64,000 nt of DNA, from NCBI RefSeq assembly GCF_011040385.1, contig NZ_JAAIKB010000008.1:62001-126000 (forward strand), read 5' to 3'. The position numbers and the translations under genes are program-made. Shown here in pieces: positions 6,895-61,733 of the stretch. The DNA is from Falsiroseomonas algicola (GTDB lineage Bacteria > Pseudomonadota > Alphaproteobacteria > Acetobacterales > Acetobacteraceae). The notes beneath the pieces are model-generated. The model was not told the DNA's origin and did no database searches. It was given only the letters and a program-made list of their open reading frames with translations. The number at the start of each line of letters is the position of its first letter. Position 1 is the stretch's first letter.

Positions 6895-7586
6895 TGCGAT
6901 CGAGGAAGCTGTGGATCGGCCTGGCCGTGGTCGGGGCGCTGGTGGCGCTGCGCTTCACTGGCCTTGGCGAGTTGCTGTCATTGGACACCCTGGCCCGCCA
7001 CCGCGCGGCGCTGACCGGCTTCGTCGCCGCGAACTGGCTGCTGGCCGCCGGCGCCTTCGTGCTGACCTATGCCGCCGCCGTCGCGCTCTCCGTCCCCGGC
7101 GCGGTGATCCTGACGCTGTCAGGCGGATTCCTCTTCGGCGCGGTGGCCGGCACGGCGCTGACGGTGGTGGCGGCGACCATCGGCGCGACGCTGGTCTTCC
7201 TGCTGGCGCGACGCATCTTCGGCGCCGATGCGCTGGATCGCCTCGGCCCCGTCGCGCAGAGGCTGGCGGCCGGGCTGCGGCGCGATGCGGGCCCCTACCT
7301 GCTGGTGCTGCGGCTGGTGCCGCTCTTCCCCTTCTTCCTGGTCAATCTGGTGCCGGCTTTCGCGGGCGTGAGGCTGCCGGTCTTCGTGCTGACGACGCTC
7401 ATCGGCATCCTGCCTGCTACAGCGGTGTTCAGCCTGGCCGGGGCTGGGCTCGGTTCCGTCCTGGATGCCGGCGGCACGCTGGAGATCCGCAGCATCCTGA
7501 CGCCGCAGATCATCGGCGCGCTCTGCGGCCTGGCGGCGCTGTCGCTGGCCGCCATCCCGCTGAAGCGCCGCTTCGCGAAGGATTAG
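6891..7586 (+). CDS. TVP38/TMEM64 (VTT, DedA-like) family membrane protein
   Basis: 231 residues with five or six hydrophobic segments. The VTT core includes PGAVILTLSGGFLFG and, later, LRLVPLFPFFLVNLVPAFAG, the paired re-entrant-loop motifs of the family. VTT proteins are integral inner-membrane proteins, some linked to lipid flipping or membrane homeostasis. The ATG at 6891 overlaps the flavoprotein stop; a second ATG follows immediately at 6894. The pairing of a VTT protein with a membrane-associated flavoprotein is common, and a joint redox or membrane role is inference. Its stop codon overlaps the stop of the convergent racemase-family gene by four bases (TTAG, 7583-7586). Confidence 0.88.
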   Translation: MMRSRKLWIGLAVVGALVALRFTGLGELLSLDTLARHRAALTGFVAANWLLAAGAFVLTYAAAVALSVPGAVILTLSGGFLFGAVAGTALTVVAATIGATLVFLLARRIFGADALDRLGPVAQRLAAGLRRDAGPYLLVLRLVPLFPFFLVNLVPAFAGVRLPVFVLTTLIGILPATAVFSLAGAGLGSVLDAGGTLEIRSILTPQIIGALCGLAALSLAAIPLKRRFAKD

Positions 7587-8308
7587 CCGAGGCGCTTCGC
7601 CAGCGGCTCCGAGAGGCCGATGGTCTCGACCGGCGCGTGTACCGTGCCCACACCGATGGGCGTGTGGCCCAGCGCGGCGAAGGCGGCGCGGATGCCCGTC
7701 TCCACCGAGCACAGCACCGGCACGGGCACCAGCGGCGCGAGTCGCGCGGCCAGTCCCGCGAGGCCTGCGCCCCCCAGCACCACCGCCTCCGCCCCATCCA
7801 GCGTCACGCAGTCGCGGCAGGTTTGCGCGAGCGAGGCGATGGCGCTGTCCGGATCCCGCGCGATGTCGCCGCCCGTCGGCAGGATGCTGCGCACGCCCGA
7901 CAGCCGGTCGGCATAGCCGCGGCGCTGGTGAAATTCCTCCAGCATCGGCTTCCACGCCGCGCCGCCGCTGACGACGCCGAAGCGCCGCGCGATCCGGCAG
8001 GCGGCCTCCGCCGTGGCATCGGCCAACCCCAGCACCGGCACCGAGGCCAGTTCCCGCAGCGCATCCAGCGCCGGGTCGCCATAGCAGGCGATCAGCACCG
8101 CATCGGCATCCCTGCCATGCTCCGCGAAGGCGTCGATCGTCGCGTGTTCGGCGACCGCCGCCGTCGCGCGGCTCGCGATGTAGCGCGCGCCGAAGCGCCC
8201 CGTGGCGCCGGCCACGGTGACGCCCGGCGGTGCCAGGCCCTGCGCGATGGCAACCAGCCGGTCCGTGATGGCCTGGGTCGTGTTGGCGTTGATCAGCAGC
8301 AGCTTCAT
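7583..8308 (-). CDS. Asp/Glu/hydantoin racemase-family protein lacking the second catalytic cysteine
   Basis: 241 residues with the family start MKLLLINANT and two pseudo-symmetric halves. The first active-site cysteine is present (Cys75 in LIACYGDP). The position of the second, normally in a GCAG turn, reads LGGAGL, with Gly180 in its place. Racemases of this family (hydantoin, allantoin, aspartate) use two cysteines. One-cysteine members such as arylmalonate decarboxylase catalyse decarboxylation, although that enzyme keeps the other cysteine. The true activity is therefore open: racemase is unlikely, and lyase, decarboxylase or isomerase is possible. It is the last gene of the ureide operon, 34 bp after the CE4 hydrolase gene. 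Confidence 0.85.
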   Translation of the reverse strand: MKLLLINANTTQAITDRLVAIAQGLAPPGVTVAGATGRFGARYIASRATAAVAEHATIDAFAEHGRDADAVLIACYGDPALDALRELASVPVLGLADATAEAACRIARRFGVVSGGAAWKPMLEEFHQRRGYADRLSGVRSILPTGGDIARDPDSAIASLAQTCRDCVTLDGAEAVVLGGAGLAGLAARLAPLVPVPVLCSVETGIRAAFAALGHTPIGVGTVHAPVETIGLSEPLAKRLG

Positions 8309-8342
8309 GGGGGCATTCCATCCCCCATCGCGCCGCGAAAAG

Positions 8343-9212
8343 CTAGGTCGGGTCCCCGCTGGAGAGATACCACTCCATGATCTCCCGCCCCTGCATGAAG
8401 CAGACGCCCGGCATGGCCATCAGGTCGTCCAGCATCGCCTCCAGCGCGCCGATGCGGTGGGGCACGCCGGTGATGTAAGGGTGGATGGCGAAGGACATCA
8501 CCTTCGGCCCCGCCTCCGCCAGCAGCCGCGCCGCCGCCAGCCGCGCGCGCCTCGGCAGTTCCTGCTCGTCATGGTGCTGGATCATGGCGACGGGGATGTC
8601 GTTGAGCTCCACGCTGTAGGGCATGGTCAGCACCTCACCCGCCGTGGTGCGGAGCCGCGCCGGCAAATCGTCCACGACGAAATCGGCGATGTAGCGGATG
8701 CCGGCCTCCGCCAGCAGGTCCGGCGTCTCCAGGGTTTCGGTCAGCCCCGGGCCGAGCCAGCCGACCGGCGGCGCGCCGCTGAAGCGCGTGATGGCCTCGA
8801 CGGTCCGCGCGATCATCGCGCGCTGGTCGGGTTCGCGATGCGTCGGCACCTGCACGAAGCCATGGCCCATGAATTCCCAGCCGGCATCGTGGGCAGCCTG
8901 CGCCACGCGCGGATATTCGTGGCAGACATTGCCGTTGATCGAGAGCGTCGGCCGGATGCCCCGCTTCGCGAAGGCGTCGAGGAAGCGCCAGAAGCCGACT
9001 CGCATCCCGTATTCATGCCAGGCCCAGTTGGCGACATCCGGCAGCAGCGCCGCCCCCGTCGGCGGGCTCAGAACCTGGCGCGGCATGGGGTTGTCGATCA
9101 GCCAATGCTCGACATTCACCACCGGCCAGATCGCGAGTTCCGCGCCGCCCGGCAGCGCGGCCGGCGGCCGGTCCTGGGGGGCGGCGTAGCGGAGGCGTTG
9201 TTCGGGTCGCAT
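8343..9212 (-). CDS. Polysaccharide deacetylase-family (CE4) hydrolase, PuuE/allantoinase-like
   Basis: 289 residues matching the PuuE-type branch of the NodB/CE4 fold. Markers are PVVNVEHW near residue 30, HEYGMRVGFWRFLD near 66-79, a PTLSINGNVC strand near 90, WEFMGHGFVQ near 112-121 and a late YITGVPHR. PuuE-type proteins include cofactor-free allantoinases that hydrolyse a cyclic ureide amide bond, rather than sugar deacetylases. There is no signal peptide, so the protein is cytoplasmic, which also argues against polysaccharide substrates. It starts 2 bp after the cyanuric acid hydrolase stop, placing it in the same ureide catabolic operon, where it may handle an open-chain or cyclic ureide intermediate. 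Confidence 0.85.
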   Translation of the reverse strand: MRPEQRLRYAAPQDRPPAALPGGAELAIWPVVNVEHWLIDNPMPRQVLSPPTGAALLPDVANWAWHEYGMRVGFWRFLDAFAKRGIRPTLSINGNVCHEYPRVAQAAHDAGWEFMGHGFVQVPTHREPDQRAMIARTVEAITRFSGAPPVGWLGPGLTETLETPDLLAEAGIRYIADFVVDDLPARLRTTAGEVLTMPYSVELNDIPVAMIQHHDEQELPRRARLAAARLLAEAGPKVMSFAIHPYITGVPHRIGALEAMLDDLMAMPGVCFMQGREIMEWYLSSGDPT

Positions 9213-9214
9213 GC

Positions 9215-10315
9215 TCAGGATTCCACGATCACGGCCACGGGCCCGCCGCCATCGGGGCCCTGATGCTCCGCCCCGCCGCTGATGAAGAGGTCGGTGCGGC
9301 CCGTCGCCGCCGCGGCGACGCCGCCGACCAGCGCGCGGGCGTGGCGCGTGGCGTTGATGTCGCTGTCATCGTTCATGATGTGCCGATTGCCGCGGATGCG
9401 CCCGCTGGCGGAGGGCTCGGCCTTTGCCAGCAGCGCTGCGAGCCGCACCCTCTGCGCGTCGTTCAGCTGCCCAGGCGCGGCCAGCCCCGCCGCCGCCAGC
9501 GCCCGCTGGATCGCCGAAAAATCGATCCCGTCCTGCATCACGTCATGCGCGATGCGCAGGCTTCCCGCCCAGGCCTCGCTGTTGCCCAGCACGACGATCT
9601 CGTTCCGCGTCAGCTCCACGCCCGCCGAGGCACTCGCCACGCCGGACCATAGGGACAAATCCTCCCCGATCACCGCGTCCGAAAGCTGGTGGGCCGCGAC
9701 CTCGCCCAGCGCCAGCGCGACGCCGAGCGCGGAGGCCCCGCGCGACAGGCCCATGGAGCGGTAGGTGTCATGCGTCGCGACCGTGGCACCGCGCGCCTCC
9801 GCCTCCGCGATGCGCTCGCTGGTCAGCAGCGGGCATTTCACCTGCACGTAGTGGACATCGGCAACCTCCGTGATGCCCGCATCCGCCATGGCGGCGCGGA
9901 CGGCGGCGGCGGTCGCTTCCACCTGCGCCATGCGGCCAAGCTCCTCCGGCCGGAATTCCGGCGTGAAGGCGGTGCCGATGGCCAGCGCACCCGTCGGCGC
10001 GGCATCCGTCTCCGTCACGGCAAACAGAATGAAATGCGGCGCGAGCCCACCCTCCGTTCCCCCCGACATCACCATCGCCACGCGCTCTGCCACCACCGCA
10101 GGCGTGGTGCCGAGGTGCCCGGCCAGCATCGTGGCCAGCGCGCTCACGGCGTAGGCTCTGGTGAAATCGTTGACGCAGCCATTGCCCTCGGTCTTGCCGA
10201 GGATCGCGACGATGCTGGCGGGGTCGAGCGTCCCGGCGCTGAACAGCGCCTCGATCCCCGCCATGTCGGCGGGGTGGCGCATCGGGACCCGATGCACCGA
10301 TGCCAGTCTGGTCAT
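9215..10315 (-). CDS. atzD: Cyanuric acid amidohydrolase (AtzD/TrzD, ring-opening amidohydrolase family)
   Basis: 366 residues, the usual length for the family, built of three homologous repeats. All three Lys/Ser pairs expected for cyanuric acid hydrolase and barbiturase are visible: Lys41 (GKTEGNG) and Ser84 (MSGGTEGG); Lys in VQVKCPLLTS and Ser in ASASAGVE; Lys in AKAEPS and Ser in ISGGAEHQGP. The middle repeat (VQVKCPLLT, then DTYRSMGLSRGASALG) agrees closely with AtzD of the s-triazine pathway as I recall it. The reaction would be cyanuric acid plus water to 1-carboxybiuret, which loses CO2 to biuret. The ATG at 10315 has AAGAAGG upstream and overlaps the ATPase stop as ATGA. Barbiturase activity cannot be excluded. 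Confidence 0.85.
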   Translation of the reverse strand: MTRLASVHRVPMRHPADMAGIEALFSAGTLDPASIVAILGKTEGNGCVNDFTRAYAVSALATMLAGHLGTTPAVVAERVAMVMSGGTEGGLAPHFILFAVTETDAAPTGALAIGTAFTPEFRPEELGRMAQVEATAAAVRAAMADAGITEVADVHYVQVKCPLLTSERIAEAEARGATVATHDTYRSMGLSRGASALGVALALGEVAAHQLSDAVIGEDLSLWSGVASASAGVELTRNEIVVLGNSEAWAGSLRIAHDVMQDGIDFSAIQRALAAAGLAAPGQLNDAQRVRLAALLAKAEPSASGRIRGNRHIMNDDSDINATRHARALVGGVAAAATGRTDLFISGGAEHQGPDGGGPVAVIVES

Positions 10316-11085
10316 GCGGCCTTCTTCGCGTGGTGGCTGTGCAGCCGCGCGCCGAGTTCGCGGCGCACCTCGTTGAACTCCGGCGAGGAGACGTCGCGCG
10401 GCCGCGGCAGCTCGATCCGGTGCTCGCTCGCGATCCGCCCCGGCCCCGGCTCCATCACCACGACGCGGTCGGCCAGGAAGATCGCCTCCTCGATGGAATG
10501 CGTCACGAACAGCACGGTCAGACCCGTGCGCTGCCACAGCTCCAGCAGCTCGTCCTGCAGCCGCTCCCGCGTCATCGCATCCAGCGCGCCGAAGGGCTCG
10601 TCCATCAGCACCACCTCCGCGTCATTCGCCAGCACGCGGGCGATCGCCACGCGCTGCTTCATGCCGCCGGAGAGCTGGTGGGGATGCGCATCAGCAAATC
10701 GGGTCAACCCGATCAGGTTGACGAAACGCTCGACCGTCTCGGCCACCTCGCTCTTCGGGCGCCCGCGTGACTTCGGCCCGAAGCCGATATTCTCCCGCAC
10801 CGTCAGCCAGGGGAACAGGCCGTAATCCTGGAACACCATGCCCCGATCCGGCGCCGGCCCGGCGATGGGCTTGTCCCACATCAGCGCGTCGCCATTCGTC
10901 GGCTGCTCGAATCCCGCCACGATGCGCAGCAGCGTCGATTTCCCGCAGCCGGAGGCACCGATCAGGCAGACGAACTCGCCCTTCTTCACGGTCAGGTTCG
11001 CATCGCGCAGCGCCTCGATCCGCGCATCGCCCAGCGTATAGGTCTTGCCGACATGCCTGATGTCGAGGATGGGGATCTCAGCCAC
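10312..11085 (-). CDS. ABC transporter ATPase (NitT/TauT type)
   Basis: 257 residues from a GTG at 11085; another in-frame GTG lies at 11112. Walker A GASGCGKSTLL is near residues 38-48, the Q-loop is in MVFQDYGLFPW, the ABC signature is LSGGMKQR, Walker B is VVLMDEPFGALD and the switch histidine is in FVTHSIEEA. The tandem arrangement matches SsuB/TauB-type importers of nitrate, sulfonates, taurine and pyrimidine-like compounds. The start was chosen because GGAG lies about 10 bases upstream and the overlap with the permease gene is only 8 bp. It energises uptake with the permease and binding protein encoded just upstream in the operon. Confidence 0.92.
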   Translation of the reverse strand: MAEIPILDIRHVGKTYTLGDARIEALRDANLTVKKGEFVCLIGASGCGKSTLLRIVAGFEQPTNGDALMWDKPIAGPAPDRGMVFQDYGLFPWLTVRENIGFGPKSRGRPKSEVAETVERFVNLIGLTRFADAHPHQLSGGMKQRVAIARVLANDAEVVLMDEPFGALDAMTRERLQDELLELWQRTGLTVLFVTHSIEEAIFLADRVVVMEPGPGRIASEHRIELPRPRDVSSPEFNEVRRELGARLHSHHAKKAA

Positions 11086-11926
11086 GGTGCATGGGGCTCC
11101 AGCGCAGGGCACGGTTCATCAGCATGACGACGACGCGGTCGCTGACGAAGCCGGCAATGCCGATGACGATCATGCCGCAGATCACGAGTTCCGTGCGGCT
11201 CAGCGTGCGGCCATCCATGATGACGGCGCCGAGGCCCTGCGGCACGCCCGTCATCTCGCCGACCACGATCACGAACCAGGCGAGGCCGAGGCCGAGCCGC
11301 AACCCCGTGAAGATGGAGGGCAGCGCGGCGGGCAGCACCACGCGGAAGAACTGCGCATTGCCGCGGCAGCCCAGCATGGAGGCGGCCTCGAACAGCCGCG
11401 GCTCGACATTCTTCACGCCGAAGATGGTGTTGAGCAGGATCGGGTAGAAGGCGCCGAGGAAGACCAGGAAGAAGGCCGATTTCGGCCCGAGCCCGAACAG
11501 GATCATCGACAGCGGCAGCCAGGCCGTGACCGGGATCGGCCGCATCAGCTGCAGGAAGGGATCCAGCAGCTGCCGCACCAGCTCGATGCGCCCGATCAGC
11601 AGGCCGAGCGGCACCGCCACCACGGCCGCCAGCAGGAAGCCGCCATAGACGCGCGATGCGCTGGCCAACAGGTGCAGGTGGAGCGTGGCGGAGAAGGCAT
11701 CGTCCCAGATGCCGCCGACCGCGAAATCCACCATGTATTCCGCGACCTCGGCGGGGGACGGGATCAGCCGCGTCATCCCCGCCTTCACCGCGAGGTGCCA
11801 GCCCAGCAGCAGCAGCAGCGGCACCACCAGCGACAGCGCGATGGGGCCGAGGCGTTTCGCCAGGCGCTGGCCCGCGCTGCGCGTGGGCGCGGCGGCGGGC
11901 GCCGTCGCGATCATTGCCTCGGCCAT
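11078..11926 (-). CDS. ABC transporter permease (NitT/TauT type)
   Basis: 282 residues with a cytoplasmic N-terminus and about six membrane segments. The EAA-type coupling loop for the ATPase is seen at EAASMLGCRGNAQFFRVVLP, near residues 180-199. It belongs to the SsuC/TauC/ThiX-like BPD_transp_1 permeases. It sits 12 bp after the binding-protein gene and overlaps the ATPase gene, forming a complete binding-protein, permease, ATPase importer inside the ureide operon. The likely cargo is a cyclic ureide or triazine such as cyanuric acid, inferred from the neighbouring hydrolases. Confidence 0.92.
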   Translation of the reverse strand: MAEAMIATAPAAAPTRSAGQRLAKRLGPIALSLVVPLLLLLGWHLAVKAGMTRLIPSPAEVAEYMVDFAVGGIWDDAFSATLHLHLLASASRVYGGFLLAAVVAVPLGLLIGRIELVRQLLDPFLQLMRPIPVTAWLPLSMILFGLGPKSAFFLVFLGAFYPILLNTIFGVKNVEPRLFEAASMLGCRGNAQFFRVVLPAALPSIFTGLRLGLGLAWFVIVVGEMTGVPQGLGAVIMDGRTLSRTELVICGMIVIGIAGFVSDRVVVMLMNRALRWSPMHRG

Positions 11927-11938
11927 CGCACGCTTCCC

Positions 11939-12889
11939 TTACGAGGTCGCGACTTCGTTGGAGAAGCGCGGGTTGAGGAAGGTGTTGAAGTTCGGCAGCT
12001 GGCGGATCTGCCGCATCTCCAGCATCTGCTGCGCATAGGCACGCGCCTGGCCGAGCACCGTGTCGTCCAGCTTCCAGATGTATTCGACGTTGTTGGCGCC
12101 GAGCGCCTGCTCCACCGCCGCGCGCGGCGCGCCGAGGATGCGCACCGTCGCATCCGCGACCTCCCGCGGGTTCGCCATCATGAACTCGCTGGCGCGGCGA
12201 TGGATGCCGAGCATGGTGCGCACCAGCGCCGGGTCCTGCGCGATCTGCTGTTCGCTGGTCGCGAAGATCATGTTCAGCCCGCCCATGGCGGTGCCGTAGG
12301 GGTATTCCACCAGCTGCCCGACACCCGACGAGATCGAAAGCCCCGGCCCCGGCTCCGCGCCGACATAGGCGTCGATGTCGCCGCGCGACAGCATGGCGTG
12401 CATCTCGCCGAAGGGCACGCGGACGCTGGTGATGTCGCGCACCGTCATGCCGGTCTGGCGCAGGCGCTCCAGGATGAAGACCTCCTGCGTCGATCCCGGC
12501 CAGATGCCGACGCGCTTGCCGCGGAGATCGGCGATGCTGCGGATCGGGCTGCCGGCCTTGGCGATGACGCCCATGCCCTTGTTGCAGAAGGCACCGACGA
12601 CGACGACAGGCTCACCGGCCGCGCCGCCCAGCAGCGCGGCCGCGATGCCAAAGCCGCCGAAGTTCACGGAATTCGTCACCACCGCGTTCTTGCCATCGGT
12701 CGGGCTGTCGAAGGTGGTGATCTCGATCTTCAGGTTCGCCGGCGCGAAGCGCTCATAGAAATGCGGCGTCATGGAATGGATGAGGCGGAGCGACCCCATC
12801 TTCACGGTGCGCTGCGCCTGCGCATTCGCGACATGCGGCGCGGCGATCAGCGCGCTGGCCCCGGCGAGGATATGGCGACGACGGATCAT
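11939..12889 (-). CDS. ABC transporter substrate-binding protein (SsuA/TauA/NMT1-like), Tat-type signal
   Basis: 316 residues from the ATG at 12889, which has AGGGAG about 9 bases upstream. An alternative ATG at 12910 overlaps the upstream stop as ATGA. The signal begins MIRRRHILAGASAL and ends ANAQA, resembling a twin-arginine leader, so export in folded form is possible. The mature part has the NMT1/SsuA two-lobed fold, with GKRVGIWPGSTQEV as the hinge-side helix of lobe 2. It binds the solute in the periplasm for the permease encoded next. Context suggests a small ureide or triazine. Confidence 0.9.
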   Translation of the reverse strand: MIRRRHILAGASALIAAPHVANAQAQRTVKMGSLRLIHSMTPHFYERFAPANLKIEITTFDSPTDGKNAVVTNSVNFGGFGIAAALLGGAAGEPVVVVGAFCNKGMGVIAKAGSPIRSIADLRGKRVGIWPGSTQEVFILERLRQTGMTVRDITSVRVPFGEMHAMLSRGDIDAYVGAEPGPGLSISSGVGQLVEYPYGTAMGGLNMIFATSEQQIAQDPALVRTMLGIHRRASEFMMANPREVADATVRILGAPRAAVEQALGANNVEYIWKLDDTVLGQARAYAQQMLEMRQIRQLPNFNTFLNPRFSNEVATS

Positions 12890-12906
12890 GCTTCTGCTCT
12901 CCCTGT

Positions 12907-13296
12907 TCATGTGGTGGCGAGGCTGGCGATGAAGGCGCGCCATCCCCCGAATTCGGAAATCTCGGTGGCGCCGGTCAGGCCCTCGGGCTCCACCAGGAAG
13001 CCCTTGGGCGTGGTCCCATCCGCCAGGCGCAGCGTGCCGATGCAGAGCGGCGCGGGGACGCCCGCGACGAAGCGGCCGAAGCCGGCATCCGGCAGCGCCC
13101 AGACCTCGGTCTGGATGGCGTGGCCCTCCGCCACGCGCAGCAGGCCGGGCCGCTTCGGCGGGCCGCCCGCCAGGGCGAACAGCCGGTACCAGGGCCCGGT
13201 TGGCACGGCGCGGCGCAGCTCCGCGCCCTCCCGCAGCAGCTCATGGTTCAGCACCATGCCGGAGAGATGCGCGCCGACGACGGCGATCTCGATCAT
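12907..13296 (-). CDS. atzF (C-terminal part): Stand-alone allophanate hydrolase C-terminal domain (gamma-glutamylcyclotransferase-like fold)
   Basis: 129 residues starting MIEIAVVGAHLSGMVLNHEL. This resembles the C-terminal domain of AtzF/DUR1,2-type allophanate hydrolase, including YRLFALAGGPPKRPGL, APLCIGTL and the closing FGGWRAFIAS. In fused enzymes this domain is reported to assist decarboxylation of the product released by the amidase domain. Here it is a separate gene whose start overlaps the amidase stop by four bases (13293-13296), so the two are translationally coupled and probably form a complex. There is no sign of a recent frameshift: both genes have proper ends and a regular ATGA junction. 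Confidence 0.85.
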   Translation of the reverse strand: MIEIAVVGAHLSGMVLNHELLREGAELRRAVPTGPWYRLFALAGGPPKRPGLLRVAEGHAIQTEVWALPDAGFGRFVAGVPAPLCIGTLRLADGTTPKGFLVEPEGLTGATEISEFGGWRAFIASLATT

Positions 13297-14621
13297 GCCG
13301 CGTATCCCTTCATCAGCGCGGCACCGGTCGCCGCCAGGCCGGCATCGCTGGCGCGTGGCCCGATCAGCGTGACGCCGAAGGGCAGCCCATCGGGGCGGGG
13401 CGGCGCCGGCACGGCGATGGCCGCCAGATCCAGCAGGTTCACGAAGTTCGTGTAGGTGCCAAGCCGGGCATTGGGCCCGATCGGGTCGGCTTCGAGCTCC
13501 GCCAAGGTCGGGAAGTTGGGCGCGGTCGGCACCAGCAGCGCCTCGATCCCCTCCCAGGCCGGACGGGTCGCGAGGCGCAGTTCGGCCAGCCGATGCAGGC
13601 CGCGGAAGGCGTCGGTCGCGCTGAAGCGCGCCGCGCCGGCCACGATCCGGCGCGTCACGGGGTGCATCGCCTCGGGGGCCACCAGCGCGCCGAAGGCCGC
13701 GTCGCGCTCGGCCACGAAGGCGCCCTCATAGAGCAGCCGCGCGGTCTCGAGGAACGGCGTGAGGTCTCGCTGCACCAGCGTCACGCCCGCGGGCAGCCGC
13801 GCCAGCGCCGCCTCCCAGGCCGCGCGCTGCTCCGCGCCATCGAGGTGCAGGTCCTCCACGCGGGGAATGCCGAGCCGCGTGAAGGCTGGCCCCGGCGCGC
13901 CCAACTCGATCGGCCGCGACCAGGGATCGCGGTCATCGCCCCCCGCCATCACCCCGTAGCAGGCCCAGGCATCCGCCACGTCATTCGCGAAGACTGAAAT
14001 GCAGTCGAGGCTCGGGCAGGCCGGCACCACGCCGCGGGACGGAACGGCGCCGACGCTCGGCTTCAGCCCGACCAGCCCGTTCAGCGCCGCCGGCACGCGG
14101 CCCGACCCGGCGGTGTCGGTGCCCAGCGACAGCAACGCCAACCCCTGCGCCACCGCGACGGCGGAACCGCTGGAAGAGCCCCCCGGCACGCGATCCGGCG
14201 CGCGGGCATTGCGCGGAATGGGGTGCGGCGTGCGGACGCCGACCAGTCCCGTCGCGAACTGGTCGAGGTTGGTCTTGCCGGTGATGATCGCGCCGGCCGC
14301 GACCAGACGCGCCACCGCCGGCGCCGATTCGGCCGGCACATAGGCATGGGCCGGGCAGGCCGCCGTGGTCGGCATGCCAGCCACGTCGATATTGTCCTTC
14401 ACCGCCACCGGCACCCCCCAGAGGGGAAAGCGCGCGGGATCGAAGGGCGGCAGCGCCGCGATCGAAGCCGCGACCTCGGCTTCCGAGGGCTGGGCCAGGT
14501 AGATGCCGGGATCGTCCAGCACCCGCTGCCGTGCCGCCAGCCCCGCCATGACGGCAGAAGGCGTCAGGCCGCCGGCATAGGCCGCATGCAGCGCGGCAAT
14601 GCTCCGGGGCAGCGCGGTCAT
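13293..14621 (-). CDS. atzF (N-terminal part): Allophanate hydrolase, amidase (catalytic) domain only
   Basis: 442 residues of the amidase-signature family. The Ser-cisSer-Lys triad is visible: Lys75 in VAVKDNIDVAGMPTTAACPA, Ser149 in GGSSSGSA and nucleophile Ser173 in TDTAGSGR. The 74- and 24-residue spacings equal those of characterised AtzF. The flanking text (GKTNLDQFATGLVGVR, SLDCISVFA) is specific for allophanate hydrolase over other amidases. It converts allophanate to ammonia and CO2, the last step of cyanuric acid and biuret degradation. It is the first gene of the operon, behind a candidate sigma-54 promoter. The C-terminal domain of the usual fused enzyme is encoded by the next gene. 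Confidence 0.9.
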   Translation of the reverse strand: MTALPRSIAALHAAYAGGLTPSAVMAGLAARQRVLDDPGIYLAQPSEAEVAASIAALPPFDPARFPLWGVPVAVKDNIDVAGMPTTAACPAHAYVPAESAPAVARLVAAGAIITGKTNLDQFATGLVGVRTPHPIPRNARAPDRVPGGSSSGSAVAVAQGLALLSLGTDTAGSGRVPAALNGLVGLKPSVGAVPSRGVVPACPSLDCISVFANDVADAWACYGVMAGGDDRDPWSRPIELGAPGPAFTRLGIPRVEDLHLDGAEQRAAWEAALARLPAGVTLVQRDLTPFLETARLLYEGAFVAERDAAFGALVAPEAMHPVTRRIVAGAARFSATDAFRGLHRLAELRLATRPAWEGIEALLVPTAPNFPTLAELEADPIGPNARLGTYTNFVNLLDLAAIAVPAPPRPDGLPFGVTLIGPRASDAGLAATGAALMKGYAA

Positions 14622-14659
14622 CGGGGGGATCGGGCCGGGATCATCATCATCCCCTTCTC

Positions 14660-14675
14660 AGCAAACGGCGTGCCG
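14660..14675 (-). promoter_or_regulatory. Candidate sigma-54 (RpoN) promoter of the ureide operon
   Basis: Read on the minus strand the element is CGGCACGCCGTTTGCT, matching the -24/-12 consensus TGGCACG-N4-TTGC at all but the first base. The invariant GG and GC are exactly 10 bp apart. Transcription would begin about 30 bases before the allophanate hydrolase ATG. Nitrogen-scavenging operons are classic sigma-54 targets. The enhancer-binding protein is not identified. Confidence 0.6.
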
Positions 14676-14822: not shown

Positions 14823-15515
14823 TCAGGCGGCGTCCGGCCGCGTCCTCGCCTCCGCCATGGCGACCCAGGTCCGTTCCGTCACGTCGATATGCGCCCGCAA
14901 CGCCGCCGCCGCCGCCGCCGCCTCCCCGCGCTGGATCGCCGTCACGATCGCCACGTGTTCCTCATGCGACTTCCGCATCCGGTCCGGTGCTTCCAGCTGC
15001 GCCGCCCGGAACGGCGCCAGGCGCCGCCGCGTCGCCGTCGCGATCTCCGCGAGGTAGCGGTTATGCGAACCGGCATAGAGCAGATGGTGGAAGGCGACAT
15101 TGGCGGCGCGATAGCCCGCGACGTCGCCATCCCGCACCATCGCCGCCATGCAGGCGATCTGCCGTTCCAGTCCGCGGCGTTCCTGCGGCGTCATCGCCAT
15201 GGCGCAATGCGCCGCGGCCATCGCCTCCAGCTCCGCCATCACCACGAACATCTCGGCCAGCTGGTTGGCATCCGGCACGGCGACGACGCAGCCGCGCCGA
15301 GGCACGGATTGCACCAGCCCGGTCGGCGCCAGCTGGCGCAGCGCCTCCCGCACCGGGGTGCGGCTGACGGCGAAATGCGCGGCCAGCGAGGTTTCGTCCA
15401 GCGCCGCGCCCGGCCTCAGGCGCCCCGCCACGATGTCATCCGCCAGCTGCGCCGCGATGGCTTCCGCCCGCGTGGGACGCGGCTTGGACGGTTCCTGGGG
15501 CGAGGCGGCGGGCAT
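14823..15515 (-). CDS. GntR-family regulator, FCD type
   Basis: 230 residues. The winged helix spans about residues 18-80, with LADDIVAGRLRPGAALDET and the recognition helix FAVSRTPVREALRQL, followed by the all-helical FCD effector domain (about 95-220) with the usual Asp/His-rich metal-ligand positions. FCD regulators bind organic acids or similar metabolites and usually control neighbouring catabolic genes. It is encoded directly upstream of the ureide operon in the same orientation with a 201-bp gap, making it the prime candidate regulator of that operon. Confidence 0.9.
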   Translation of the reverse strand: MPAASPQEPSKPRPTRAEAIAAQLADDIVAGRLRPGAALDETSLAAHFAVSRTPVREALRQLAPTGLVQSVPRRGCVVAVPDANQLAEMFVVMAELEAMAAAHCAMAMTPQERRGLERQIACMAAMVRDGDVAGYRAANVAFHHLLYAGSHNRYLAEIATATRRRLAPFRAAQLEAPDRMRKSHEEHVAIVTAIQRGEAAAAAAALRAHIDVTERTWVAMAEARTRPDAA

Positions 15516-54488: not shown

Positions 54489-55358
54489 TTGAAGCCGGCG
54501 CCCTTCGACTGGCAGGCGCCGGAGACGGTGGAGGCGGCGCTGGCGCTGAAATCCGTCCATGGGGATGGCGCACGCTTCATCGCGGGGGGGCAATCCCTGG
54601 TGCCGGCGATGAATTTCCGGGTCGCCCAGCCCGGCGTGCTGATCGACCTGAGCCGGGTCGCGGGCCTCGATTCGCTGGCCTGGTCGCCGGACGGGTCGCT
54701 GCGGATCGGGGCGATGGTGCGGTACCGGGCCATCGAGCGAGATGCAGAAGTGGCCAGGCACCTGCCCCTGATCCTGGAAGCGCTGGCGGAAGTGGCGCAT
54801 CCGCAAATCCGCACCCGGGGGACACTCGGCGGCAATCTCTGCCACGCCGACCCGGCCAGCGAGATGCCGGCCGTGATGCTGGCGCTCCAGGCGCGGATGG
54901 AGGTTCGGGGCCCGGGCGGCACGCGCATCCTGCCGGCGGCCGATTTCTTCCTGGGCCCGCTGACCACCGCGCTGGCGGAGGATGAGATGCTGGCCGCGAT
55001 CATGGTGCCTCCCCTGCCCGCCGGCGCCGGCACGGCCTTTCTCGAACTGGCGCGGCGGCGGGGCGACTATGCCATGATGGGCGTCGCCGCGGTGCTGCGG
55101 CGGGACGGCGCCGGGCGCTGCGCGGAAGCGCGGCTGGCCTTCTGCAGCGCAGGGCCGACGCCCATGGCGGCGCCGGGCGCGGCGGCGCTGCTGGTCGGCA
55201 CGGCGCTGGCGGCGGCCGACATCGCGGCGGCGGCGGAGGCCGCGAAGGCGGAGATCGAGCCGATGGGCAGCGTGCAGGCCTCCCCGGCCTATCAGCGCCA
55301 TCTGGCGGGCGTGCTGGCCGCCCGCGCGCTGACCCTGGCGGCGGAGCGCGCGGCATGA
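54489..55358 (+). CDS. Molybdenum hydroxylase, FAD-binding medium subunit (CoxM/XdhB-like)
   Basis: 289 residues from a TTG start with GAGGA 8 bases upstream. FAD-binding loops FIAGGQSLVPAMNFRVAQPG near residues 32-51 and TRGTLGGNLCHADPASEMPA near 107-126 are the family hallmarks. The C-terminal CO_deh_flav_C domain follows. It carries electrons from the iron-sulfur subunit to the acceptor. Encoded in the order M-S-L, with four-base overlaps. Confidence 0.93.
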   Translation: MKPAPFDWQAPETVEAALALKSVHGDGARFIAGGQSLVPAMNFRVAQPGVLIDLSRVAGLDSLAWSPDGSLRIGAMVRYRAIERDAEVARHLPLILEALAEVAHPQIRTRGTLGGNLCHADPASEMPAVMLALQARMEVRGPGGTRILPAADFFLGPLTTALAEDEMLAAIMVPPLPAGAGTAFLELARRRGDYAMMGVAAVLRRDGAGRCAEARLAFCSAGPTPMAAPGAAALLVGTALAAADIAAAAEAAKAEIEPMGSVQASPAYQRHLAGVLAARALTLAAERAA

Positions 55359-55819
55359 AGGTGCGCGTGACGGTGAATGGCGTGGCCCATGAGCGGGAGG
55401 TCGAGCCGCGCCTGCTGCTCAGCGACTTCCTGCGCCACGAGATCGGGTTGACGGGCACCCATGTCGGCTGCGAGCACGGCGTCTGCGGCGCCTGCACCAT
55501 CCTCTGGGATGGCGAGCCCGCGCGTGCGTGCCTCGCTTTCGCCGTGCAGGCGGAGGGGCATGACATCCGCACGGTGGAAAGCCTGGCGCCCGCGCCCGGC
55601 CAGCTCAACGCCCTGCAGCAGGCCTTCCAGGACAGCCACGCGCTGCAATGCGGCTACTGCACCCCCGGCATCCTGATGACGATGACGGCCTTCCTGGCGG
55701 AGAACCCGAAGCCCAGCGAGGAGGAAGTGCGCCACGCGCTGTCCGGCAACCTCTGCCGCTGCACGGGCTACCAGCACATCGTGGACGCGGTCCTTCTGGC
55801 GGCGGAGCGCGGCGCATGA
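55355..55819 (+). CDS. Molybdenum hydroxylase, 2Fe-2S small subunit (CoxS/XdhC-like)
   Basis: 154 residues with both cluster motifs: the plant-ferredoxin type GCEHGVCGACTIL with a following Cys in ARACLAF, and the second CGYCTPGILMT ... GNLCRCTGYQ. It shuttles electrons between the molybdenum site and FAD. Overlaps its neighbours by four bases on both sides. Confidence 0.96.
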   Translation: MKVRVTVNGVAHEREVEPRLLLSDFLRHEIGLTGTHVGCEHGVCGACTILWDGEPARACLAFAVQAEGHDIRTVESLAPAPGQLNALQQAFQDSHALQCGYCTPGILMTMTAFLAENPKPSEEEVRHALSGNLCRCTGYQHIVDAVLLAAERGA

Positions 55820-58152
55820 CGCATTCCTTCGGCAAGCCGCTGACGCGGAACGAGGACCCGCGGCTGCTGCGGGGCGAGGCGCTGTTCGTCGACGATGTCG
55901 AACTGCCCGGCCTGCTGCATGTGGCCTTCCTGCGTAGTCCGCATGCCCATGCGCGGCTGCTCTCCGTCGATCTGACGGCGGCGCGCGCGCGGTCCGGCGT
56001 GATCGCCGCCTATGCGGCGGAGGATCTGGGCGACTACTGGAAGCCCGGCCCCCTGCTGGTGCCGCCGCCACCCGTCCCCGGCATGGTCTTTCATCAGTGC
56101 TGCCAAGTGCCGCTGGTGAAGGACAAGGCGCGGCATGTCGGCGAGCCCGTCGCGATGGTGGTGGCCGAGAGCCGCTACATCGCGGAGGACGCGCTGGCCG
56201 ACATCGTCGTGGAGTGGGAGGTGCTGGACGCGGTCGGCGACCTGGAGGCCGCGCTGCAGCCGGGCTCGCCGCTGGTGCATGACCATCTCGGCGTGAACGT
56301 CGCGGCGCGCGTGCACCAGCATCGCGGCGACTATACCGCGGCGGCGAAGGCGGCCGCCCTGGTCGTGAAGCGGCGCTTCACCTATGACCGCGGCGCCTCC
56401 ATCCCCATGGAGACGCGTGGCGTCGTCGCACAATGGGACCCGCGGGCGGACCGGCTGACGGTCTGGGACACGACCCAGGCGCCCGTCGTCATCCGCAACG
56501 GGCTGGCCGCCATGCTCGGCCTCAGCGAACGGCAGGTGCGCGTGGTCGCGCCCAATATCGGCGGCGGCTTCGGGCCGAAGATGATGATGTTCTACCCCGA
56601 GGAAGTGCTGGTCCCCTGGGCCGCCATGCGCCTCGGAAGGCCTGTGAAGTGGATCGAGGATCGGCTGGAGCATTTCTTTGCCACGACGCATGAGCGCAGC
56701 CAGATCCATGACGCGGAGATCGCGCTGGATGCCTCCGGGCGCATCCTCGGCGTGAAGGATGTCTTCCTGCACGACAACGGCGCCTATGACCCCTATGGCC
56801 TGACGCTGCCGCTGAACAGCCAGTGCACGCTGCTGGGCTGCTACCTCGTGCCGGCCTATGACAGCGTCTTCACCGCCGTCTTCACCAACCGCACGCTGGT
56901 CACGCCCTATCGCGGTGCCGGACGGCAGCACGGCGTCTTCGTGATGGAGCGGCTGCTCGACATCGCGGCGCGCGAACTCGGGCTGGACCGCAACGAGATC
57001 AGGCGGCGCAACTTCATCCCCGCGGACGCCTTCCCCTACGACCAGGGCGTGATCTACCAGGATTTCTCCCGCCTCTCCTACGACAGCGGCAACTACGCAC
57101 CGATCCTGGAGAAGGCGCTGGACGCCATCGGCTATGACCGCTTCGTGCAGGAGACGCAGCCGAAGGCGCGCGCGGAGGGCCGGGCGCTGGGCATCGGCGT
57201 GGTCTGCTATGTCGAGGGCACGGGCATCGGCCCCTATGAGGGTGCGAAGATCCAGGTGCAGGGCAGCGGCAAGGTGAGCCTCGCCACCGGCATCGGGTCT
57301 CAGGGCCAGGGCCATGCCACGGCCTTCGCGCAGGTCGTCGCCGAGCAGCTCGGCGTCGATATCCGCGATGTGGAGGTCACGACCGGCGACACCGACCAGT
57401 TCTATTGGGGCGTCGGCACCTTCGCGAGCCGCGGCGCCGTCGTCGCCGGCAGCGCCACGCATGAAGCCGCCAAGGTGGTGCGCCAGAAGATCCTGAAGAC
57501 CGCCGCGCGCCACTTCGAATGCGCGGAGGAAGATCTGGTCCTGGCCGATGGCAAGGTGCATGTCGTCGGCGTGCCGGATCATTCGATCACGCTCGGCGCC
57601 CTGGCGGGCCTGGCGAACCCCATGCGCGGCGCCGTCACGCCGGGCACGGAGCCGGGGCTGGAGGCGACGTCCTATTTCGGCCCGGCCGGCGGCGCCACCG
57701 CCAGCGGCGCGCATGCGATGATCGTGGAGGTCGATCCGCTGACCCTGCGGCCGACCATCCTCGACTACGTCGTCGTCCATGACTGCGGCACGGTGATCAA
57801 CCCGCTGATCCTGGCCGGGCAGATCCAGGGTGGCGTCGCGCAGGGCATCGGCAATGCCTTCTTCGAACAGCTGCATTGGGACGAGCAGGGCCAGTTGATG
57901 AATGCCAGCCTGGCGGACTACCTGCTGCCGACCGCGCTCGACGTGCCGCGCATGCGCCTCGACCACACCGTGACGCCGTCGCCGCTCAATCCGCTCGGCG
58001 TGAAGGGCGCGGGGGAGGCCGGCGCCATCCCCGTCGGCGCGCTCTTCGCGCAGGCGCTGGAGGATGCGCTGGACCTGCCTGCCAAGGGGATCGAGATTCT
58101 CGAAATGCCGCTCAGCCCCTCGCGACTCTGGGAGATCACCAACGGTGGCTGA
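55816..58152 (+). CDS. Molybdenum hydroxylase, large molybdopterin-binding subunit (CoxL/XdhA-like)
   Basis: 778 residues. An N-terminal hammerhead-type domain begins GKPLTRNEDPRLLRGEALFV. The Mo-cofactor domain shows IGGGFGPKMMMFYPEEVLVP, PYRGAGRQHGVFVMERLLD, GIGSQGQGHATAFAQVVAEQ and the catalytic glutamate in GVKGAGEAGAIPV. The CO dehydrogenase selenyl-cysteine loop (AYRCSFR) is absent, so it hydroxylates an aldehyde or N-heterocycle rather than CO. Surrounding nucleobase and ureide genes favour a purine or pyrimidine substrate; uracil to barbiturate would fit the downstream hydrolase. That is inference. Confidence 0.94.
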   Translation: MTHSFGKPLTRNEDPRLLRGEALFVDDVELPGLLHVAFLRSPHAHARLLSVDLTAARARSGVIAAYAAEDLGDYWKPGPLLVPPPPVPGMVFHQCCQVPLVKDKARHVGEPVAMVVAESRYIAEDALADIVVEWEVLDAVGDLEAALQPGSPLVHDHLGVNVAARVHQHRGDYTAAAKAAALVVKRRFTYDRGASIPMETRGVVAQWDPRADRLTVWDTTQAPVVIRNGLAAMLGLSERQVRVVAPNIGGGFGPKMMMFYPEEVLVPWAAMRLGRPVKWIEDRLEHFFATTHERSQIHDAEIALDASGRILGVKDVFLHDNGAYDPYGLTLPLNSQCTLLGCYLVPAYDSVFTAVFTNRTLVTPYRGAGRQHGVFVMERLLDIAARELGLDRNEIRRRNFIPADAFPYDQGVIYQDFSRLSYDSGNYAPILEKALDAIGYDRFVQETQPKARAEGRALGIGVVCYVEGTGIGPYEGAKIQVQGSGKVSLATGIGSQGQGHATAFAQVVAEQLGVDIRDVEVTTGDTDQFYWGVGTFASRGAVVAGSATHEAAKVVRQKILKTAARHFECAEEDLVLADGKVHVVGVPDHSITLGALAGLANPMRGAVTPGTEPGLEATSYFGPAGGATASGAHAMIVEVDPLTLRPTILDYVVVHDCGTVINPLILAGQIQGGVAQGIGNAFFEQLHWDEQGQLMNASLADYLLPTALDVPRMRLDHTVTPSPLNPLGVKGAGEAGAIPVGALFAQALEDALDLPAKGIEILEMPLSPSRLWEITNGG

Positions 58153-58927
58153 GCCGGCGATCGCCGCGCGGAACCTGTCCCTGGTGTTCCGCACCAATGA
58201 CGGGCCGGTCCATGCGCTGTCCGACGTGAACATCGACATCGCGCCTGGCGAGTTCATCTCCCTCATCGGCCCCTCAGGCTGCGGGAAGACGACGCTGCTG
58301 CGCGTGATCGCGGATCTGGAGAAGCCGACCGGCGGCGAGATCCGCGTGAACGGCGTGACGCCGGAGGCCGCGCGGCTGGCGCGCGACTATGGCTACGTCT
58401 TCCAGGCGCCGGCGCTGTTTCCCTGGCGCACCATCGAGGGCAACGTGATGCTGCCCTTGCAGATCATGGGGCTCTCCAAGGCCGAGCGGCAGGAACGCGC
58501 GCGGCAGCAGCTGGCGCTGGTGAACCTGGCGGGCTTCGAGCGGAAGTTTCCCTGGCAGCTCTCCGGCGGCATGCAGCAGCGCGCCTCCATCGCCCGCGCG
58601 CTGGCCTTCGAGCCGAAGCTGCTGCTGATGGACGAGCCCTTCGGCGCGCTGGACGAGATCGTCCGCGACCACCTCAACGAACAGCTGCTGAAGCTCTGGG
58701 CCACGACGCGCAAGACCGTGGTCTTCGTGACGCATTCCATCCCGGAGGCGGTCTTCCTCTCCACCCGCATCGTCGTCATGTCGCCGCGGCCCGGACGCAT
58801 TACGGATATCGTGGATTGCGACCTCGGCCCCGATCGCCCGCTGGAGATCCGGGAGACGCCGGAATTCCTGCGCATCGCGCAGCGCGTGCGGGAGGGGCTG
58901 CGCGCGGGCCATTCCTATGAGGGCTAG
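58145..58927 (+). CDS. ABC transporter ATPase (NitT/TauT type)
   Basis: 260 residues from a GTG overlapping the large-subunit gene by 8 bp. Walker A GPSGCGKTTLLRVIA, Q-loop YVFQAPALFPW, signature LSGGMQQRASIARAL, Walker B LLLMDEPFGALDE and switch His FVTHSIPEA. It drives the import system made with the two permeases and binding protein downstream. Confidence 0.93.
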   Translation: MAEPAIAARNLSLVFRTNDGPVHALSDVNIDIAPGEFISLIGPSGCGKTTLLRVIADLEKPTGGEIRVNGVTPEAARLARDYGYVFQAPALFPWRTIEGNVMLPLQIMGLSKAERQERARQQLALVNLAGFERKFPWQLSGGMQQRASIARALAFEPKLLLMDEPFGALDEIVRDHLNEQLLKLWATTRKTVVFVTHSIPEAVFLSTRIVVMSPRPGRITDIVDCDLGPDRPLEIRETPEFLRIAQRVREGLRAGHSYEG

Positions 58928-59783
58928 CATCCTGCCGGTGCTGACGGTCTCCGCCGGCATCGTGGTGCTGTGGTACCTCGGCGCCGTCTGGCTGAACTGG
59001 CAGGTGGTGTGGGACATGCAGGCGCGGGCCGGCCATGCGCCCGACTTCGCCACCATGGTGTCGCTGACGCTGTCCCATGCGCGACCGCTGCTGCCGGCGC
59101 CGCACCAGGTGGTGGTGGAAACCTGGAACAGCCTGACGGGACCGCCCATCACATCCCCCCGCAGCCTGGTGAACCATGCGATGGTCACGCTCTCCGCCGC
59201 GCTGGCGGGGTTCGGGCTCGGGTCGCTGGCGGGAGTGCTGCTGGCGGTTGCGATCATCCATGTGCGGGCGCTGGAACGCAGCCTGATGCCCTGGATCATC
59301 GCCTCCCAGGCCGTGCCGGTGCTGGCGCTGGCGCCGATCGTCATCGTCGCGCTGGGCGCGCTCGGCATGACGGGGCTGATGCCGAAGGCGATCATCAGCG
59401 CCTATCTCTGCTTCTTCCCCGTCGCCATCGGCATGGTGAAGGGGCTGGCGGCGCCGGATGCCCTGTCGCGCGACCTGCTCCGCACCTATTCCGCGACGCC
59501 GGCGCAGGTATTCTGGACGCTGCGCGTGCCGACCTCCCTGCCCTACCTTTTCGCCGGGCTGAAGGTCGCGGTCGCCGCCGCCGTGGTCGGCGCCATCGTG
59601 GCGGAGTTGCCGACCGGCGCGCAGGCGGGGCTGGGCGCGCGGCTGCTGGCGGGGTCCTATTTTGGCCAGACCCTGCAGATCTGGTCGGCGCTGACCGTCG
59701 CGGCCGTGGTCTCCGCCACGCTGGTCGGGGTGGTCGGCCTGGCGGAGCGGCTGCTGGCGCGGCGCATGGGGGCGCGGGCATGA
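58917..59783 (+). CDS. ABC transporter permease 1 (NitT/TauT type)
   Basis: 288 residues with about six membrane segments. The region PWIIASQAVPVLALAPIVIV and the coupling loop DLLRTYSATPAQVFWTLRVP near residues 185-204 are typical of SsuC/ThiX-like permeases. An 11-bp overlap with the ATPase gene and a four-base overlap with permease 2 show that the two permeases are made together and probably form a heterodimer, unlike the single-permease importer of the ureide operon. Confidence 0.92.
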   Translation: MRASILPVLTVSAGIVVLWYLGAVWLNWQVVWDMQARAGHAPDFATMVSLTLSHARPLLPAPHQVVVETWNSLTGPPITSPRSLVNHAMVTLSAALAGFGLGSLAGVLLAVAIIHVRALERSLMPWIIASQAVPVLALAPIVIVALGALGMTGLMPKAIISAYLCFFPVAIGMVKGLAAPDALSRDLLRTYSATPAQVFWTLRVPTSLPYLFAGLKVAVAAAVVGAIVAELPTGAQAGLGARLLAGSYFGQTLQIWSALTVAAVVSATLVGVVGLAERLLARRMGARA

Positions 59784-60703
59784 GGACGGGGCTGCTCGCG
59801 GCCGTCGTCGTGCTGGGCTTCGTCCTGGCGATCGCGGGCGTGCATGCGCCGGGCGAGCCGGGCTCGCTGGCCTGGGCCGGCATCGCCCTCACCGCGGGGC
59901 TCGCGGCCTGGCTGGTGAAGCGGCTCGGCGACCTGCCGGGCCAGGGCTGGCAGGCGCTGGCCGCGCCGCTGGCCTTCGGGGCCACCATCCTCGCGCTGTG
60001 GGAAGTGCTGGTGGTGGGGTTCGAGGTGCCGATGGCCCTGATGCCCGCGCCCTCCGCCATCGCCGCCCGGATGGCCAGCGGCGCGCATCTGCTCTGGCAG
60101 GATTTCGTGCAGACCTTCCTCAAGGCCGTGCTGGCGGGCTACGCCATCGGCTGCGGCTCGGGGTTCCTCATGGCGCTGCTGGCGGACCGCGTGCCCTTCC
60201 TGCGCCGTGGCCTGCTGCCCATCGGCAATCTGGTGGCGGCGCTGCCCGTCGTCGGCATCGCGCCGATCATGGTCATGTGGTTCGGCTTCGACTGGCCCTC
60301 CAAGGCCGCCGTCGTCGTCGCCATGACCTTCTTCCCGATGCTGGTGAACACGGTGGCGGGCCTGGCCGCTGCCGGCGCGCTGGAGCGCGACCTGATGCGC
60401 AGCTACGCCGCCGGCCACGGCCAGACGCTGCTGCTGCTGCGCCTGCCCGCCGCCCTGCCCTTCATCTTCACGGCGCTGAAGGTGAACGCGCCGCTGGCGC
60501 TGATCGGCGCCATCGTGGCGGAGTTCTTCGGATCCCCCACCACCGGCATGGGCTTCCGGATCACGACGGAGGCCGCGCGCCTCGCCCTCGACATGGTCTG
60601 GGCGGAAATCGTTGTGGCGGCGGTGGTGGGTTCGGCATTCTACGGCGCCATGGCGCTGATCGAGCGGCGGGTGACCTTCTGGCATCCGTCCGTTCGCGGC
60701 TGA
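59780..60703 (+). CDS. ABC transporter permease 2 (NitT/TauT type)
   Basis: 307 residues. Two extra N-terminal hydrophobic segments precede the BPD_transp_1 core with VAALPVVGIAPIMVMWFGFD, DLMRSYAAGHGQTLLLLRLP (coupling loop) and IVAEFFGSPTTGMGFRITTE. Related to permease 1 and to RutG-unrelated pyrimidine/hydroxymethylpyrimidine ABC permeases. It is followed after 19 bp by the binding-protein gene. Confidence 0.92.
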   Translation: MRTGLLAAVVVLGFVLAIAGVHAPGEPGSLAWAGIALTAGLAAWLVKRLGDLPGQGWQALAAPLAFGATILALWEVLVVGFEVPMALMPAPSAIAARMASGAHLLWQDFVQTFLKAVLAGYAIGCGSGFLMALLADRVPFLRRGLLPIGNLVAALPVVGIAPIMVMWFGFDWPSKAAVVVAMTFFPMLVNTVAGLAAAGALERDLMRSYAAGHGQTLLLLRLPAALPFIFTALKVNAPLALIGAIVAEFFGSPTTGMGFRITTEAARLALDMVWAEIVVAAVVGSAFYGAMALIERRVTFWHPSVRG

Positions 60704-60722
60704 CAAGCAAGGAGAGACAGGG

Positions 60723-61733
60723 ATGGTGATGGAATCGATGCGGCGCGCCGTGCTGGGCGGGCTGGTGGGGCTCGGGATGCTCGCGGGCGGTGCCGCGGCG
60801 CAGGCGCAGGAGCGCGTGAATCTCCAGTTGAAGTGGGTCACCCAGGCCCAGTTCGCGGGCTACTACGTCGCGCAGGCCCGCGGCTTCTACCGGGCCGCCA
60901 ACCTCGATGTCCGCATCGCGCCAGGCGGCCCGGACATCGCGCCGCCGCAAGTCATCGCGGGCAACCGCGCCGACGTCATCGTGGAATGGATGCCCGCCGC
61001 GCTGGCCAGCCGCGAGCGTGGCGTGCCGCTGGTCAACATCGCGCAGCCCTTCAAGCGGTCCGGCATGATGCTGACCTGCCGGGCGGAGACGGGCATTCGC
61101 ACCCCCGCCGACCTCCGCGGCAAGACGCTCGGCGTCTGGTTCTCCGGCAACGAATATCCCTTCCTCGCCTGGATGTCGCGCCTCGGCTATCCCACCAACG
61201 GCACGCCGCAGGGCGTGCGCGTGCTGCGCCAGGGCTTCAACGTGGACCCGCTGCTGCAGCGCCAGGCCGACTGCGTCTCCACCATGACCTACAACGAATA
61301 CTGGCAGGTCATCGATGGCGGCTTCCGCCCGGAACAGCTCCAGGTCTTCCGGTATGAGGAGCAGGGCGTCGCCACGCTGGAGGACGGGCTTTATGTGCTG
61401 GAGAACCGCCTGACCGACGCGGCCTTCGTCGCGCGCATGGCGCGCTTCGTCCGTGCCTCCATGCAGGGCTGGGACTGGGCGCGGCAGAACCCGGATGCGG
61501 CGGCGCAGATCGTGCTGGATAACGATGCTTCCGGCGCGCAGACCATCGCGCATCAGCGCCGCATGATGGGCGAGATCGCCCGCCTGCTGGATACCGAAGG
61601 CGGCGGACGCCTGGTGCAAGCCGACTATGACCGCACGGTGCAGACGCTGCTGTCCTCCGGTGGCGACTCGCCGGTGATCAGCCGGGCGCCGACCAATGCC
61701 TGGACGCATGCGGTGGTGGACGCGATCCGCTGA
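60723..61733 (+). CDS. ABC substrate-binding protein, NMT1/THI5-type
   Basis: 336 residues. Signal peptide (GLVGLGMLAGGAAAQAQ), then VNLQLKWVTQAQFAGYYVAQ, the near-universal start of NMT1/THI5 pyrimidine-precursor binders (ThiY type), ADVIVEWMPAALASRERGVP, LRGKTLGVWFSGNEYPFLAW and MTYNEYWQVIDGG. ThiY-like proteins bind formylaminopyrimidine and related heterocycles, so a pyrimidine-like cargo is plausible. Together with the ATPase and two permeases it completes an importer co-transcribed with the Mo hydroxylase. Confidence 0.92.
   Translation: MVMESMRRAVLGGLVGLGMLAGGAAAQAQERVNLQLKWVTQAQFAGYYVAQARGFYRAANLDVRIAPGGPDIAPPQVIAGNRADVIVEWMPAALASRERGVPLVNIAQPFKRSGMMLTCRAETGIRTPADLRGKTLGVWFSGNEYPFLAWMSRLGYPTNGTPQGVRVLRQGFNVDPLLQRQADCVSTMTYNEYWQVIDGGFRPEQLQVFRYEEQGVATLEDGLYVLENRLTDAAFVARMARFVRASMQGWDWARQNPDAAAQIVLDNDASGAQTIAHQRRMMGEIARLLDTEGGGRLVQADYDRTVQTLLSSGGDSPVISRAPTNAWTHAVVDAIR

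Follow-up and report, generated by a model that had tools for sequence, protein, structure and literature searches.

A stretch of 64,000 nucleotides from Falsiroseomonas algicola (NCBI RefSeq assembly GCF_011040385.1, contig NZ_JAAIKB010000008.1, positions 62,001 to 126,000), termed the window here, contains an operon of eight minus-strand genes. Its stable part is an ABC importer and a CE4-family hydrolase together with allophanate hydrolase (AH), while a cyanuric acid hydrolase (CAH) of the AtzD family is an optional member. The operon appears to be a unit for import and hydrolysis, the product of which AH would have to process. We propose tentatively, with somewhat less than even confidence, that it scavenges nitrogen: a linear ureide is taken in by the importer, converted by the CE4 protein to allophanate, most likely from biuret, and finished by AH.

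In this scheme, a small linear ureide, of which biuret is the most likely, would enter through the importer and be hydrolysed by the CE4 protein to allophanate and ammonia. The two-gene AH would then turn allophanate into ammonia and carbon dioxide, and a GntR regulator would control the unit. In some Roseomonadaceae lineages a CAH gene stands just before the CE4 gene. The CAH product, carboxybiuret, decarboxylates to biuret, and a CE4 unit with AtzD would therefore also handle cyanuric acid.

A conserved unit with optional members

The eight open frames are all uninterrupted and lie so close that the junctions, from first gene to last, measure −4, −4, +12, −35, −4, +2 and +34 bp. The initial annotation had described this run, its gene order and its split AH correctly, and its gene identities, including an AtzD-like ring opener of CAH type, are supported by family profile scores (Table 1). 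It had extended the run to position 14675; the first gene begins at 14621, so that the operon spans 7583–14621.

A scan of the CE4 protein against 84,980 species genomes yields 506 relatives. Locus counts cover the best 80 of these 506, of which 53 are assessable, with at least 6 kb of upstream and at least 4 kb of downstream flank. Every assessable locus (53/53) has the binding protein, permease and ATPase beside CE4, and AH belongs to the unit in 49. AtzD occurs in 9 of the assessable loci and in 10 of the 80 overall, and the racemase-like gene in 7 of 53 and likewise 7 of 80. The earlier view of an operon built round AtzD thus gives way to one of a conserved unit made of importer, CE4 and AH. 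A GntR regulator of at least 45% identity is present in 35 of the 53 loci.

The recurrence of the operon order in other species makes it more than chance. Most loci of Acetobacteraceae and Hyphomicrobiales have AH upstream of the importer, and those of Methylobacterium, Roseococcus and their kin have it downstream of CE4, which means that the pairing has survived rearrangement. When AtzD is in the unit, it always sits between the ATPase and CE4 genes (10 of 10 loci). Its presence changes at least four times on the CE4 tree (81 sequences, three uninformative rows omitted), which does not distinguish gain from loss, and the best reading is that AtzD has repeatedly been gained or lost.

The same genes also co-occur at the level of whole genomes. 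In a background sample of 385 alphaproteobacteria, an AtzD-family gene is found in 22 and AH_C, the C-terminal AH domain, in 65, and a CE4 gene of at least 49% identity is found in 11. AtzD is present in 7 of these 11 compared to 15 of the other 374 (P = 2e-7, uncorrected for kinship, the 7 coming from three families), and AH_C in 8 of 11 compared to 57 of 374 (P = 5e-5, likewise uncorrected). A further 50 genomes were chosen from the best 80 for their long loci, metagenome-assembled genomes included. AtzD-family genes occur in 29 of these 50 module genomes, compared to the 22 of 385 in the class sample.

The AtzD protein of the operon is predicted to be of the cyanuric acid hydrolase type. 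It is nearer to solved CAH structures (354.5–402.6 bits, the best being the 4NQ3 cyanuric acid amidohydrolase at 402.6) than to the barbiturase 5HWE (286.9 bits). A second AtzD-like gene in the window also passes NF052395, the NCBI equivalog model for CAH (376.9 bits), and this model by itself therefore leaves the AtzD substrate unsettled.

Candidate enzymes for the biuret step

The CE4 protein has the fold of PuuE allantoinase. This allantoinase acts on a small ureide, which counts in favour of a ureide substrate for the CE4 protein as well, and the most economical one would be biuret. The CE4 protein is unlikely to be a PuuE allantoinase itself, as it reaches 95.4 bits on TIGR03212 against a cut-off of 424.6, and the PuuE stretch GWYTGR is replaced by GWLGPGLTET. 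As described in PMC10967932, CE4 polysaccharide deacetylases bind metal through an Asp pair in motif 1 and two His residues in motif 2. Judged by sequence reading only, the motif 1 region here is NVEHW, which lacks that Asp pair, and motif 2 retains H117, followed by Q121 four positions later. The protein also differs in fold from BiuH, an isochorismatase-like cysteine hydrolase (NF050097), and is not a member of that family.

No enzyme of the CE4 type is known to perform the biuret step, and its assignment here is a testable guess. A wider claim, which we regard as unlikely, is that BiuH and AtzEG would be joined by the CE4/PuuE-fold protein as a third, unrelated solution to this step. As part of an import-to-ammonia unit it would be widespread in Roseomonadaceae, Methylobacterium and other Hyphomicrobiales, and one clade would have added a single-cysteine, racemase-fold carboxybiuret decarboxylase.

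The initial annotation had noted that the middle step, AtzE/AtzG or BiuH, is missing. This holds for the run, in which none of atzG, atzE and atzH is found and which is not an atzDGEHF-type operon, but it fails for the genome. A genome-wide search for these homologues, named beforehand as able to overturn the missing step, does find them, at the sequence level only, and the biuret or triazine step appears not to be missing. The genome has 11 isochorismatase-family genes, ten of which were scored against NCBIfam, the weakest (L018) being left out. One is a BiuH ortholog at C90:175210, on another contig (NF050097 410.6 bits at 213 residues, or 386.7 as a fragment, cut-off 370; 406 bits over 211 residues against the Rhizobium BiuH structure 6AZO). 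A second gene of the family, at C44:22385, scores higher against 6XIX (275 bits), a structure deposited as a cysteine hydrolase that we take to be TrtA, than against BiuH structures.

Two of the 25 AtzE-model matches in the genome exceed the cut-off of 425.75, one on C11 (684.8 bits) and one at C88:48622 (609.8 bits; 479.6 against the solved AtzE 6C62). Both have an AtzG-like gene upstream, and the C88 gene also has an AtzH-like gene, named HpxZ by NCBIfam. This AtzG-AtzE-AtzH set, at C88:48.2–50.3 kb, is about 19 kb beyond the downstream end of the operon (C88:69.6–76.6 kb).

Among the 50 module genomes, BiuH is above its cut-off in 7, AtzE in 41 and AH_C in all 50. Nine have neither BiuH nor AtzE above the cut-offs, and 7 of these also have no AtzD-family gene. 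AH is part of the CE4 unit in 6 of these 7 (G392/L052, G399/L062, G404/L069, G409/L075, G414/L086 and G432/L116); in the seventh, G430/L112, it is not beside CE4. Methylobacterium WSM2598 (G427) has AtzD, CE4 and an unlinked AH, with a TrtA-like isochorismatase (265.5 bits) and neither AtzE nor BiuH above the cut-offs.

The initial annotation had offered both of the remaining enzymes as candidates for the missing step. The CE4 protein may indeed carry out the reaction that precedes AH, for which the racemase-like protein is a poor candidate. This gene is limited to Falsiroseomonas-type genomes. Compared to the hydantoin racemase 3QVJ, whose two cysteines we take to be active-site positions, the window protein and its 7 orthologs keep the first cysteine and have Gly at the second (8 of 8), which makes a two-cysteine racemase mechanism unlikely. 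The entry 5LFD, named allantoin racemase, has Gly at the first cysteine position, so either a single cysteine may suffice for some activity in this family or the entry is a mutant.

Alternative explanations

It is possible, though doubtful, that BiuH or AtzEG(H) performs the triazine or biuret step in trans, that the CE4 protein acts on another imported imide or ureide, possibly cyclic, ending at allophanate, and that AtzD merely shares the importer and AH. The BiuH ortholog on C90 and the two AtzGE sets fit this explanation, and the named member of the PuuE fold group to which the CE4 protein belongs acts on a cyclic ureide. In addition, BiuH adjoins AtzD in 3, and AtzE is present in 6 (these 3 included), of 17 AtzD regions that lie outside the CE4 operon in the module genomes. 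Set against it are the 9 of 50 module genomes with neither enzyme above the cut-offs, and we know of no cyclic substrate that yields allophanate for AH.

Several observations weigh against biuret hydrolysis by the CE4 protein itself. AtzE is above its cut-off in 26 of the 27 genomes with CAH-type AtzD compared to 15 of the 23 others (P = 0.007), and in all 10 genomes with AtzD inside the CE4 operon, so AtzEG may perform the triazine step; the genome of the window also encodes BiuH. The absence of genes in the 50 searched genomes is weak evidence. No CE4 ortholog is found in 25 AtzD regions (covering 26 of 27 AtzD-family genes) of the other 21 alphaproteobacteria, and only 3 of these regions have any CE4 match, at 32–34% identity, which makes AtzD-CE4-AH a local arrangement. 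Moreover, no AH_C is found near CE4 relatives of 41–56% identity (19 regions, L183–L201), which confines the AH link to one clade, above about 63% identity. Finally, the 4 of 53 assessable loci without AH all carry an alpha/beta hydrolase (PF20434/PF07859) after CE4, and Enterovirga (L204), which has no adjacent AH, has its AH beside urea carboxylase (1915 bits).

This Enterovirga arrangement raises the question of whether AH serves urea carboxylase, in which case its location beside CE4 would say little about the CE4 protein. We consider this improbable given the 49 of 53 assessable loci with AH in the CE4 unit, and no urea carboxylase is recognised in the window operon, the rest of the genome not having been searched for one. 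Slightly less probable still is a purine-breakdown role, with the CE4 protein as allantoinase and the racemase-like protein as allantoin racemase. Both proteins are distant members of those families, and locus L137 has a PuuE-like CE4 gene (33% identity) and a racemase-family gene (30%) near AtzD. However, the allantoinase score and the replaced GWYTGR stretch speak against this role, as do the scarcity of the racemase-like gene and its lost cysteine, and no allantoate or ureidoglycolate gene is seen in the operon.

The racemase-fold protein could instead be the carboxybiuret decarboxylase of its clade, standing in for TrtB and taking the AtzD product to biuret, an assignment to which we give little credence. 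Decarboxylases of the racemase fold have a single-cysteine pattern like the one found here, and an AtzD-family gene is present in all 7 searched genomes with the racemase-like gene (G385–G391) and in that of the window. On the other hand, AtzD lies outside the operon in 4 of the 7 loci with the racemase-like gene, G389 and G390 have only a lower-scoring AtzD type, and the kept cysteine may be the opposite one from that of the known decarboxylases.

Gene arrangement, related systems and implications

The proposed unit of importer, CE4 protein and AH is listed with its neighbours in Table 1. The regulator gene lies 201 bp upstream of the first operon gene on the same strand. The two AH genes overlap by 4 bp and between them contain both AH parts, and the AH_C gene is the sole one found in the genome of the window (one match). 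The AH amidase part contains AVKD (73), GGSSSGSA (147) and TDTAGS (168), which we take to be the Lys and Ser motifs of the amidase family.

Table 1. Genes of the operon and its probable regulator, in window coordinates
Feature	Position	Strand	Profile evidence
GntR/FCD transcriptional regulator, probable regulator of the unit	14823..15515	-	PF00392 72.0 bits and PF07729 91.0 bits
AH amidase part, 442 residues	13293..14621	-	TIGR02713 530.7 bits (cut-off 511.05)
AH C-terminal domain as its own gene, 129 residues	12907..13296	-	PF21986 148.7 bits (AH_C cut-off 27)
ABC importer periplasmic binding protein, NMT1/SsuA kind	11939..12910	-	PF09084 85.9 bits, scanned from codon 3 onward
ABC importer permease	11078..11926	-	PF00528 77.8 bits
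ABC importer ATPase, GTG start	10312..11112	-	PF00005 114.4 bits
Cyanuric acid hydrolase (AtzD family), optional unit member, ATG at 10315	9215..10315	-	NF052395 562.4 bits (cut-off 360)
CE4/NodB-fold hydrolase, PuuE-like, proposed allophanate maker	8343..9212	-	PF01522 29.7 bits (cut-off 23.1)
Asp/Glu/hydantoin racemase-family protein, clade-specific accessory	7583..8308	-	PF01177 162.5 bits (cut-off 31)

Of the 80 loci, 26 have an alpha/beta hydrolase gene (BD-FAE/Abhydrolase_3) after CE4, sometimes in place of AH; 12 loci have both. Examples include L062, L068–L070, L075, L081, L092, L106, L112, L116 and L121.

Other AtzD-family genes occur in different surroundings. The second window gene, just above the CAH cut-off, is among features at 61764–62810 (-), 54489–58152 (+) and 58064–61733 (+), near xanthine-dehydrogenase-type molybdenum hydroxylase genes (PF00941, PF01799, PF02738/PF20256) and an NMT1-type ABC importer, and this region may be a cluster for the hydroxylation and ring opening of heterocycles. 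A third AtzD-like gene of the genome (L005, C90:158500–178000), at 280.8 bits below the CAH cut-off, is in a run with an NMT1 ABC importer, an amidase, a luciferase-like flavin monooxygenase and BiuH, and two relatives (L180, L181) have the same set. The fourth (L006, C3:142800–162300; 232.7 bits) is beside phosphoribosyltransferase and M20 peptidase-family (carbamoylase-like) genes, with ornithine-cyclodeaminase family, dihydroorotate-dehydrogenase electron-transfer-like and Rieske oxygenase genes nearby, and looks like part of a pyrimidine or orotate breakdown cluster. In L169, L170 and L173 (Beijerinckiaceae, Rhabdaerophilum), BiuH, AtzD and a TrtA-like gene occur together with AtzE nearby, while the CE4-AH unit is elsewhere in the genome; these genomes apparently have two parallel routes.

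Known pathways resemble the window operon in part. The atzDGEHF operon of Pseudomonas sp. ADP also joins CAH and AH in one operon for complete mineralisation. Compared to it, the window operon lacks atzG, atzE and atzH, has an ABC importer and CE4, and encodes AH in two genes; moreover, the window-type unit exists without AtzD in most relatives. The BiuH pathway of Rhizobium leguminosarum 3841 (AtzD, BiuH and AtzF) shares the proposed core from biuret through allophanate to ammonia, although BiuH has a different fold from the CE4 protein, is encoded on another contig here, and is below its cut-off in 43 of 50 relatives. The TrtA-TrtB-BiuH-AtzF triuret pathway of Herbaspirillum likewise converges on carboxybiuret and biuret, but the window operon has neither TrtA nor BiuH, and the TrtA-like isochorismatase is elsewhere in the genome. 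PuuE allantoinase differs from the CE4 protein in the score and key stretch described above.

Biuret is a fertiliser impurity and the hub of triuret and cyanuric acid breakdown. If the CE4 protein is a biuret hydrolase, then BiuH and AtzE markers would miss many biuret-using bacteria. The operon would then also be a clear case of pathway growth, in which a ring-opening enzyme is docked onto an existing unit.

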